64,000 bases of DNA. It comes from Porphyrobacter sp. Its GTDB lineage: Bacteria > Pseudomonadota > Alphaproteobacteria > Sphingomonadales > Sphingomonadaceae. Where the stretch lies: positions 434,001 through 498,000 of the forward strand of contig JAGIBN010000001.1 in assembly GCA_017744315.1 (NCBI GenBank), given 5' to 3'. Of this stretch, positions 3,553 through 64,000 are shown one piece after another; position 1 is the stretch's first letter, and each line of letters starts with the position of its first letter. Both the position numbers and the translations under genes were made by a program. The notes under the pieces are model-generated. The model saw only the letters and a list, made by a program, of their open reading frames with translations. It did no database searches and was not told the origin of the DNA.

Positions 3553-3747
3553 AGGGGAAGACCCGGGGGATGATCCCCCGGACCCTCGGAATGTCGTCGT
3601 TGTGCGCTACCTATCCGGTGTGCGCTCCCTGCGGCGCAGCCAATAAGTCTCCCGACGCAGCCATGGGCGCACGAGGCAGTCGGTCCGCGTGACCTGGACG
3701 GTAATGGGGGTGCAGGGGGGCTATGCTCCCCTGCTTTTCCTTTTCTT
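3551..3747. repeat. Dispersed intergenic repeat, copy A (~195 bp)
   Basis: ACCCGGGGGATGATCCCCCGGACCCTCGGAATGTC...GCGGCGCAGCCAATAAGTCTCCCGACGCAGCC...GACCTGGACGGTAATGGGGGTGCAGGGGGGCTATGCTCCCCTGCTTTTCC; gap-free match by eye to copy B. Confidence 0.93.
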
Positions 3748-19026: not shown

Positions 19027-19131
19027 GTCATGCTCCCGTTTGCGTGTGCGGGTCCTGTCCGGGATCGCCGGAAGATCGTCAACGCAATAAGGCTTCCCAC
19101 AAGCCCGCCGAACGCCTAGAGCGGCCCAATC

Positions 19132-19222
19132 CCCGGGGGGCCGCTCATGCGCGGCTGAGAGGTGGTCAGCAGACCACGACCCGCTGAACCTGATCCGGTT
19201 GACACCGGCGTAGGGAGGGCTG
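19132..19222 (+). promoter_or_regulatory. TPP (THI-box) riboswitch
   Basis: Conserved THI elements: CCGGGGGGCC...GGCTGAGA...ACCACGACCCGCTGAACCTGATCCGGTTGACACCGGCGTAGGGAGGG; directly upstream of a TonB receptor gene. Confidence 0.93.
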
Positions 19223-19268
19223 GCGGCAGAGCGTCCGTTGTCCCTCCGACTGGAGCGGACGAAAGACG

Positions 19269-38050: not shown

Positions 38051-38247
38051 TAAGAGGAAGTCCTGGGGGATGATCCCCCAGACCCTCGGAATGTCACCGT
38101 TGCGCGCCACCTATCGGTATTGCGCTCCTTGCGGCGCAGCCAATATGTCTCCCGACGCAGCCATGAGCGCACAACGGATAGGCTGGGTGTGACCTAGACG
38201 GTATCGGGGGTGCAGGGGGGCTATGCTCCCCTGCTTTTCTTTTTCTT
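38051..38247. repeat. Dispersed intergenic repeat, copy B (~195 bp)
   Basis: TCCTGGGGGATGATCCCCCAGACCCTCGGAATGTC...GCGGCGCAGCCAATATGTCTCCCGACGCAGCC...GACCTAGACGGTATCGGGGGTGCAGGGGGGCTATGCTCCCCTGCTTTTC. Confidence 0.93.
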
Positions 38248-50150: not shown

Positions 50151-50595
<445 letters not shown>

Positions 50596-60587: not shown

Positions 60588-61334
60588 TCAAGTTCCCCGC
60601 GTGTCGCCCCAGATATGGATGTGCAGGCGGTCGGTGAAGCGATAACCTTCCTGCGTGCAGATGTCCGAGAGCCATCCCGACCGCTGCCGGATGACATCGC
60701 TGGAGCGGCCCTCCGGCATCAGGAATATCCGCTCGGCGGGGATATTGTAGCGCTCTTTCAGCGCGCGGACCTCATCGACGTCGGCAGGCTCGGCCACCAC
60801 GAACTTGAAATAAGCGCGCGGATCGGCGGCCCAGGCATCGAGCCGCTCGGGCACCAGCGCCAGTTCCGCCGGATTGCCGCTGTGCGAGAGCTTCGGGCTG
60901 ACATTGTACTGCTGCACCCGCGCATCGAGGCTGGCATGCGGCGCGACCGAGCCGTTGGTCTCGATCTCGACATGCATCCCCGGCCGGGCCTCGTCGAGCG
61001 CCGCCAGCATCCGCGCCAGTTGCGGCCCCTGAAGCAGCGGCTCGCCGCCGGTGATGACCAGACGGTCGGGCGGCAGATCCGCCACCATGCGCGCCACCTC
61101 GGATTCCTCGGCCATGACCTGATTGGCCTTGCGTTCGAATGCGAGCTCGTCGCGGTGGAAGCGGTTATCGCCCGTAAAGCGCCACGTATACGCAGTGTCG
61201 CACCACTGGCAGGCGAGATTGCAGCGCGACAGCCGCACGAAGGTGCTCGGGCGCCCCATGCTGGCGCCTTCGCCCTGAAGTGAAGCGAAGACTTCGGGTT
61301 CGCCGGGAGTGGTGGTGGCAAGCGCAAGCGTCAC
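60588..61334 (-). CDS. queE: 7-carboxy-7-deazaguanine synthase (radical SAM)
   Basis: VTLALATTTPGEPEVFASLQGEGASMGRPSTFVRLSRCNLACQWCDTAYTWRF...VITGGEPLLQ...EIETNG. GTG start 61334 likely; ORF open to ATG 61382. Confidence 0.9.
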   Translation of the reverse strand: MTLALATTTPGEPEVFASLQGEGASMGRPSTFVRLSRCNLACQWCDTAYTWRFTGDNRFHRDELAFERKANQVMAEESEVARMVADLPPDRLVITGGEPLLQGPQLARMLAALDEARPGMHVEIETNGSVAPHASLDARVQQYNVSPKLSHSGNPAELALVPERLDAWAADPRAYFKFVVAEPADVDEVRALKERYNIPAERIFLMPEGRSSDVIRQRSGWLSDICTQEGYRFTDRLHIHIWGDTRGT

Positions 61335-61513
61335 GGATGGTCTCGAATGCAAGGTTACGGTTTTGAAGGGTGAGGTTGACACAGTTTACACGGTCCAGAG
61401 GAAAAGTGTCACCTTGCGTCGGAGGTGTCACCTTGTGGCTGGTGTCGTGGAGAAAGGGTAGGGCGTTCACGCGCGCGAACGTGTCAGATGCGGGCGGTGT
61501 AGGAAAATAAAAA

Positions 61514-61700
61514 AGTCCTGGGGGATGATCCCCCAGACCCTCGGAATGTCTGCGTCGCGCCCGGCCTAGCCGTTTCGCGCCCACTGAGAGCCGGGAGACA
61601 AAATAGCCTGCGGCGGCAAGGAGCGCACTACGAGGCTGCGCGCGTGCCTTAGACGGTATTGGGGGTGCAGGGGGTGTTGACCCCCTGCTTTTCCCTTTGT
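61514..61700. repeat. Dispersed intergenic repeat, copy C (~187 bp, core inverted)
   Basis: Flanks AGTCCTGGGGGATGATCCCCCAGACCCTCGGAATGTC and TTAGACGGTATTGGGGGTGCAGGGGGTGTTGACCCCCTGCTTTTCC match A/B in the same orientation; the middle matches the reverse complement of the A/B core (GCCGGGAGACAAAATAGCCTGCGGCGGCAAGGAGCGC). Confidence 0.88.
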
Positions 61701-61701
61701 C

Positions 61702-64000
61702 TTAACCCAACCGCGCCAGCGCCGCAGCCAGACGCTCCGCTTCGGCCGAATGGTGCGCATGGTCGGCGCGGGCTTTGTCGATCGCCTCGGGCTTGGCCTT
61801 CTCGACGAAGGCCGGGTTGCCCAGGCGCTTGTCGAGCGAGTCCCGTTCCTTGACCGAAGCGGCCATGGCCTTTTCCAGACGGGCCTTCTCGGCAGCGATG
61901 TCGATCACGCCTTCCAGCGGAATCGCCAGCGTCGCGTCGCCTGCGCCCACCTGCATGGCGGCACCGGCCGGAGCCGCTTCGAACACGATTGCATCGAGGC
62001 GGGCCAGACGGTCGATCACGGTGCCGTTACGACCGATCACCGCGCGGGTCGCGTCCGAGGGATTGGCGACATAGGCGGTAAGGCGCGCGCCCGGCGCGAT
62101 GCCGAGTTCGGACTTGGCGCCGCGGAGGTTGCCGATCAGCGCGATCAGCCATTCGACCTCGGCCTTGGCTTCGGCGTCCACCGAGGCTTCCGGCGCGGGC
62201 CATGCGGCAACGATCAGGTCCTGATCGCGGCTGCCCATCTTGCTCCACAGCTCTTCCGTGACGAAGGGCATGAAGGGGTGGAGCATGACGAGGATCTGGT
62301 CGAGCACCCAGCCGGCGACGGCCTTGGTCTCTTCGTCGAAGTTGCCCTTGATCAGTTCGATGTACCAGTCGCAGAACTGGTTCCACACGAAGTGGTAGAT
62401 CGCGTTGGCGGCCGCGTCGAAGCGCAGGTCGGCCATGGCCTTGTCCAGCGCGGCGACGGTTTCGACGACTTCGCCGATGATCCACTTGTTGACCGCCGTG
62501 GTCGCCTTGGGGGCGGCGACCGAGGTGCTGGCGACGATGCCGTTGGACTGGCAGAAACGCGCGGCGTTCCACAGCTTCGTGGCGAAGTTGCGGTAACCTT
62601 CGACGCGCTTTTCATCCATCTTCACGTCGCGGCCCTGGCTTTCCATGGCGGCCATGAAGAAGCGCAGCGCGTCGGCGCCGTACTTGTCGATCAGGCCCAG
62701 CGGATCGACCACGTTGCCCTTGGACTTCGACATCTTCTGGCCGTCGGCAGCGCGCACCAGACCATGGAGGTAGAGCCGCTTCCACGGCACTTCCTTCATG
62801 AAGTGAATGCCCTGCATGGCCATGCGCGCATCCCAGAAGAACAGGATGTCGAAGCCGGAAACGAGCAGGTCGTTCGGGTAGTGCTTCTTCAGCAGCGGGG
62901 CGTCTTCATCAGGCCAGCCGAGCGTGGCGAAAGGCCAGAGCGCGGAGGAGAACCAGGTGTCCAGCACGTCCTCGTCGCGGGTCAGCTTCTTGTTGCCGGC
63001 CTGCGCCTGTGCTTCTTCCTCGGTTTCGGCGACGAAGATTTCGCCGTCCTCGCTGAACCACGCCGGGATGCGGTGGCCCCACCAGAGCTGGCGCGAGACG
63101 CACCAGGGCTGGATGTTTTCCATCCAGTTGAAGAAGGTCTTTTCCCAGCTCTTCGGGACGATCTCGATCGCGCCGGAGCGGACGGCTTCCATCGGCGGCC
63201 CGGCCAGCGTCTGCGCGTCGACGTACCACTGGTCGGTCAGCCAGGGTTCGATCACCACGCCGCTGCGGTCGCCGTAGGGGGTCTGGATCACGCGGTCCTC
63301 GACCTTTTCGAGCAGGCCGTCGTCATCGAGGAACTGGACGATGGCCTTGCGGGCCTCGAAGCGGTCCATGCCGATGAACTGCGGCGGCACGAGGCCGTCC
63401 TGCGTCTGGCAGACATGAGCATCGGCATCGAGCATGTTGAGCATGTCGCCGGCCTTGAAGCCCGCACGCTTGCCGACCTCGAAGTCGTTGAAGTCATGAC
63501 CCGGCGTGATCTTCACCGCGCCCGAACCGAGTTCGGGATCGGCGTGCTCGTCGGCGACGATGGGGATTTCGCGGCCGGTGAGGGGCAGGGTGACGGTGGC
63601 GCCGCGCGCCAGCAGGTCCTTGTAGCGCTCGTCCTCGGGATTAACCGCGACGGCCATGTCGGCCAGCATCGTTTCCGGGCGGGTGGTGGCGACGTGGATG
63701 TAGCCCGAACCGTCCGACAGCGGGTACTTGATGTGCCAGAAGTGGCCGTTGGTTTCGCGCGTCTCGACCTCGAGGTCGGAAATGGCTGTGCGGAACTTCG
63801 GATCCCAGTTCACCAGGCGCTTGTCGCGATAGATCAGGCCCTGCTTGTGCAGGTCCACGAAGACCTTGACCACGGCCTTGGTGAAGTGTGGATCCATCGT
63901 GAACTGTTCGCGGCTCCAGTCCATCGAGCAGCCGAGGCGGCGCAGCTGGCCGGTGATGGTGCCGCCGGATTCGGCCTTCCACTCCCAGACCTTCTCGATG
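61702..64000 (-). CDS. valS: Valine--tRNA ligase, C-terminal portion (continues past window)
   Basis: [54 protein letters not shown]...[14 protein letters not shown]...; frame stays open to base 64000. Confidence 0.96.

Follow-up and report, generated by a model that had tools for sequence, protein, structure and literature searches.

Site-specific invertible switches of the Hin/Gin type consist of a DNA segment bounded by inverted repeats which occurs in both orientations. Among the repeated sequences located between bacterial genes, the REP/BIME repeats comprise the GTAG and CGTC palindromic families, and conv-REPs lie no more than 20 bp from either stop codon (PMC3733652). Template switching is reported to have the following effects: (i) between imperfect inverted repeats, homogenisation of the arms and inversion of the spacer (PMC8604942); and (ii) inversion of the loop of a hairpin (PMC8794818). 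The loop and spacer inversions described in these two papers measure 2-8 bp (PMC8604942; PMC8794818).

The window (i.e., the whole stretch of 64,000 nucleotides that was analysed) contains three copies, named A, B and C, of a repeat which resembles each of these systems in some respects (Table 1). Two further copies lie beyond the window on the same contig, C9 (C9:502193 and C9:596454). The copies are composed of (i) a left hairpin, TCCTGGGGGATGATCCCCCAGA; (ii) a long imperfect hairpin with a conserved core at its tip; and (iii) a right hairpin, GCAGGGGGGCTATGCTCCCCTGC or variants of it, with a pyrimidine tail. They represent a repeat family of ~180 bp, conserved in Novosphingobium and apparently unnamed. 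The literature searched for a Novosphingobium intergenic repeat yielded no description of it, and no Rfam family matches the copies above its gathering score, the Rfam matches in the window being limited to RNase P, TPP and one tRNA. The ordinary RNAs of the window include a TPP riboswitch (19124-19233) and the RNase P RNA (50155-50595).

Table 1. Repeat copies, their parts and the genes next to copy C, in window coordinates.
Feature	Position	Strand	Basis
Repeat copy C, whole element	61514..61691	+	module HMMs LO+ ... RO+; BLAST to B 75%, E 6.5e-26
C left outer hairpin, predicted leftward intrinsic terminator, tail ACTTTTTTAT	61517..61537	-	terminator scan
C inner imperfect hairpin (arms and core), reversed with respect to the frame of the family	61551..61651	-	inner HMM; opposite orientation in 36/38 matched members
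C core, subtype 2, GCCGCAGGCTATTTTGTCTCCCGGCTCTC on the - strand	61577..61626	-	reverse score 33; subtype-2 clade support 100
C right outer hairpin, predicted rightward intrinsic terminator, tail TTTTCCCTTT	61667..61688	+	terminator scan
Repeat copy B, standard orientation, between OsmC-like gene (+) and sigma-54 response regulator gene (-)	38059..38238	+	
B left inverted arm	38110..38127	+	15/18 complementary to 38165-38182
B right inverted arm	38165..38182	+	sequence
Repeat copy A, standard orientation, between MFS gene (+) and LysR-family gene (-)	3559..3737	+	
valS (valyl-tRNA synthetase), right neighbour of C, continues beyond the window end	61702..64000	-	Pfam PF00133, PF08264, PF10458
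Gene for a radical SAM protein, next to C on the left	60588..61334	-	Pfam PF04055, PF13353; gene calls in L039, L198, L170, L139

Like REP/BIME sequences, the repeat is a multi-copy intergenic palindrome situated at the ends of genes, the pairs around it being convergent or tandem in most cases, for which a role in RNA or termination is suggested. But it has three parts and ~180 bp, whereas a REP has 20-40 bp, and the family consensus holds no GTAG/CGTC-tagged stem of 8-9 bp with terminal AT pairs as described in PMC3733652. A search for RAYT (Y1_Tnp, PF01797) at E 0.001 was negative in all seven genomes examined and positive in the controls; a REP/RAYT origin was rejected, since no Y1_Tnp is present in these genomes. 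With bidirectional intrinsic terminators, the repeat shares a hairpin and U-tract facing each way, at 13-14 bp from both stop codons; it differs from them in that two separate predicted terminators frame a hairpin of ~100 bp, and in that the arrangement is shared as a sequence family across loci. The likeness to Hin/Gin-type switches lies in a segment that is bounded by inverted repeats and found in both orientations, but here the orientation is fixed across species, no recombinase lies beside C, and the element has no coding or promoter payload. In common with template-switch inversion (PMC8604942; PMC8794818), sequence between inverted arms is turned in place and arm homogenisation is seen alongside; the difference is one of size, as a whole hairpin of ~100 bp is turned here instead of 2-8 bases.

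The source of the window needs some comment. The assembly holds two RNase P RNAs (on C9 and C12) and two valS genes (on C9 and C17). The valS of C9 is 92-95% identical to Novosphingobium genomes and 77-78% to genus mates of the assembly, and that of C17 is 88-89% identical to two of the genus mates. The assembly is mixed: C9 is Novosphingobium-like at its valS, and C17 fits the nominal genus. This mixture explains why all the copies are on C9 and why the repeat was found in none of the 60 relatives searched around the window's nominal genus.

When a 20-base core pattern was scanned against 85,462 species genomes, 36 stretches matched: 35 belong to Novosphingobium or to a related 'Sphingomonas' strain (IC081), and one to Didemnitutus, in which no element was found around the match. 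In six of the core-positive genomes (other members of the Novosphingobium clade), whole-element matches amount to 10 to 42 per genome. The family set was built from places fetched from six genomes, in which the modules were located with small HMMs, and it comprises 149 members at 75 loci; the plain left-core-right order is kept in 98 of these members. Another genome holds an orthologue, matched on both flanks, for 121 of the 149, and the closest paralogues within one genome are at most 91% identical, so that there is no sign of recent spread. Carriage by plasmids was rejected on a search of PLSDB at blastn sensitivity, which gave no match. The orientation of the frame relative to the flanking genes is kept in 106 of 112 orthologous pairs, the six exceptions corresponding to one locus. 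This is the sole locus (L095/L132/L179 vs L099/L113) at which the frame of the whole element is reversed between clades relative to the flanking genes.

According to the preliminary description, the core of C is inverted between flanks of unchanged orientation, and this is borne out by reverse scores, by BLAST within the window's own genome and by a tally of orientation. In the BLAST search with B, the flanks of C are matched on the + strand over the element (Table 1) and the part between them on the - strand, over 84 bases at 74% (E 2.5e-5). The core of C alone scores 33 in reverse and 18 forward; out of 20,000 dinucleotide shuffles, 5 reach 33 and 5,972 reach 18. The whole inner region scores 78 against B in reverse and 52 forward, the best of 5,000 shuffles being 48. 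The forward score is also above chance because the inner region is an imperfect palindrome and, in consequence, orientation has to be judged from the difference between the forward and reverse scores; with the inner HMM, C obtains 10.0 bits forward and 28.8 bits in reverse. In the seven genomes, the inner region of C matches 38 mapped members, 36 of them in the orientation opposite to their frame, and the two exceptions are reversed copies themselves. The inverted arms of B are 15/18 complementary, and the sequences and positions originally given are correct. The extent of the flipped unit, on the other hand, had been placed too narrowly: the inversion stands, but the turned segment is not merely the 41-bp core, as it includes the arms and covers ~100 bp, approximately within the limits given in Table 1.

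The copy beside valS occurs in this contig and in N. panipatense, N. clariflavum, N. lindaniclasticum and N. sp. ST904, always reversed (5/5 copies), with valS-side flanks that are 91-95% identical to the window; in IC081, the valS position is occupied by unrelated sequence. An assembly error as the cause of the reversed C is ruled out by the five separate assemblies. Since the reversed copy is common to five genomes, C is, judging from its distribution, an ancestral, fixed rearrangement passed on by inheritance, as opposed to a DNA switch that is still active.

Both outer modules are present in 116 members, of which 109 have an inner region that fits the inner HMM better forward and seven one that fits it better in reverse. 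In one of these seven, L115, the left side carries a right terminator in inverted form, and hence the orientation of the frame of this copy is undefined. L168 and L112 are ambiguous by the inner score, yet they have a reversed core by subtype alignment, and so have two further copies (L201 and L227). Reversed inner regions within a normal frame are thus those of the valS locus (C, L139, L170, L198 and L201), L112/L168, L113 and L227. All these loci have core subtype 2, whose copies form one clade (support 100) that also includes the forward copy L099. Core subtype 1 was assigned to 105 members, all of them forward except L115, whose frame is symmetric.

Comparison of orthologues gives 61 forward/forward, 7 reverse/reverse and 2 discordant pairs (n=70), which points to rare inversion of the inner hairpin and lends no support to switching. 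In the discordant pair formed by L113 (IC081) and L099 (N. clariflavum), the flanking genes (91-95% identity) and the outer frame are the same, and the inner hairpin is 85% identical when reversed and 65% when compared directly. L099 is by far the best match of L113 (score 134, the next being 107) and its sister in the tree (support 90). Between these sister species, the inner hairpin as a whole has been inverted cleanly in situ. The arms turn along with the core, which places the break at the hairpin's foot (GTC...GAC) and not at the edge of the core. In the other discordant pair (L115/L178), the outer modules are 95% identical in direct comparison, and the inner region is 85% identical reversed and 60% direct. 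The inner region of L115 is closer to other loci (L152, L167) than to its orthologue L178, and this pair may reflect replacement from another copy instead of an in-place flip. The frame arms of L115 are matched at 35/41, and an inverted right terminator module is found on the left side of L110, L152, L167, L114, L115 and L178.

Regarding the role of the element, the terminator scan of C scores both outer hairpins as intrinsic terminators which face outward on opposite strands. Gaps between convergent genes make up 56 of the 73 classifiable repeat loci vs 16 of 250 element-free gaps from the same stretches (p 9e-33), a large contrast, although individual gene contexts may be wrong because the gene calls come from a codon-usage script. 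The median distances to the two stop codons are 13 and 14 bp. The neighbours of C itself, valS and the radical SAM gene, are tandem and both run leftward. The convergent-gene setting, together with two opposed predicted terminators, points to a putative composite two-way transcription terminator. RNAalifold finds covariation in 3 of the 31 pairs of the consensus, most of it in the terminators and little in the long inner stem; support for the long stem as a conserved RNA structure is weak.

The best explanation, to which a probability of roughly two in three is given, is that the family acts as a composite two-way terminator in which an ancestral inversion of the inner hairpin took place in situ and was then inherited at valS. 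The inner hairpin as a whole (~100 bp) would have been inverted between its imperfect inverted arms in an ancestor from which the copies at valS descend, and the outer terminators would have kept their place. The most likely cause would be template switching of the DNA polymerase in the hairpin or an equivalent recombination between the arms. Both footprints of template switching are seen in the family, i.e., inner inversions and left terminators that are inverted right terminators (arm exchange). The segment is turned relative to its orthologue in L099/L113, and inverted arms which could serve as switch points are present in B and L115. Nevertheless, given that ~100 bp are turned here and 2-8 bp in the cases of PMC8604942 and PMC8794818, arm-arm recombination is equally plausible. 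Related reversed inner hairpins, all with core subtype 2, exist at three loci besides valS. Against this explanation, the reversed copies of several loci fall into a single clade, and some of them may have spread by copying.

A different reading is ectopic exchange, in which the inner hairpin is replaced by a reversed one from another copy, the palindromic modules pairing either way. The single subtype and well-supported clade of the reversed inner hairpins at four loci agree with it, as do the proximity of L115 to loci other than its own orthologue's and the shuffling of arm alleles among copies. However, L113 and L099 are orthologues and mutual best matches, and yet they are opposite, which leaves ectopic exchange as a rather unlikely account. 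A further possibility is that inner hairpins invert repeatedly, still at low frequency in living cultures, altering the strength of termination on each strand; this is thought improbable.

The preliminary description had read the element as modular, with a core flipped across its arms, or as an invertible or mobile core within a fixed frame. Modularity and a flip across the arms find support in the fixed outer terminators, the reversed inner hairpin and the L099/L113 pair, but the other two notions are not supported. A programmed phase-variable switch, in which a recombinase would act on the arms, could account for inverted arms flanking the turned segment and for two discordant orthologous pairs. 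Still, 68 of the 70 pairs agree, C is reversed in all five genomes having it, the arms differ between copies, and no invertase is found among the two direct neighbours of C, all of which makes the switch very improbable. The same low credence is given to a mobile element of MITE or REP type whose core was inserted in either direction. The repeat is indeed multi-copy, intergenic and palindromic, with up to 42 matches per genome; but copies at orthologous positions across species predominate (121/149), paralogues are as divergent as described above, the genomes lack the Y1 (RAYT) transposase that was found in control genomes, and no core was seen dispersed apart from its frame. Finally, near-symmetry of the element might make the core of C appear reversed by chance, and the forward similarity of its inner region to B does exceed every shuffle. 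The reverse match is far better, though, and the four orthologues of C are reversed likewise; on the shuffles and the reverse match in 36/38 members, this explanation was rejected as having a negligible probability.

With the ancestral in-place inversion as the preferred reading, the family provides a clear case, in a conserved Novosphingobium repeat, of a large central hairpin turned in place with both outer terminators unmoved. Hairpin inversion, which concerns a few bases in PMC8604942 and PMC8794818, becomes traceable across species at ~100 bp, and orthologous pairs of flipped and unflipped copies allow asking whether inner orientation affects termination. If inner hairpins did still invert, the repeats would offer a natural system in which to assay the inversion of large hairpins in a bacterium.

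Some copies carry additional sequence. In N. clariflavum (L178, 1501-1784), a palindromic insert of ~104 bp (AGAGCGTTTTC...GCTCTA) splits the core of one copy, and a similar AGAGCG...GCTCT palindrome is located after L099. The short repeat CCCTTCGACAAGCTCAGGA occupies the loop of the terminator hairpin in the left terminators of L052, L053, L054, L059, L063, L077 and L113; it is also found in the hairpin loop of the right terminator of L078, the stem-loop being lengthened by the insert. The window also contains GTGTCACCTTG repeats (61380-61440), close to the 5' end of the gene for the radical SAM protein on the left of C; the motif recurs in the other genus, in the intergenic region on the valS side (L211).
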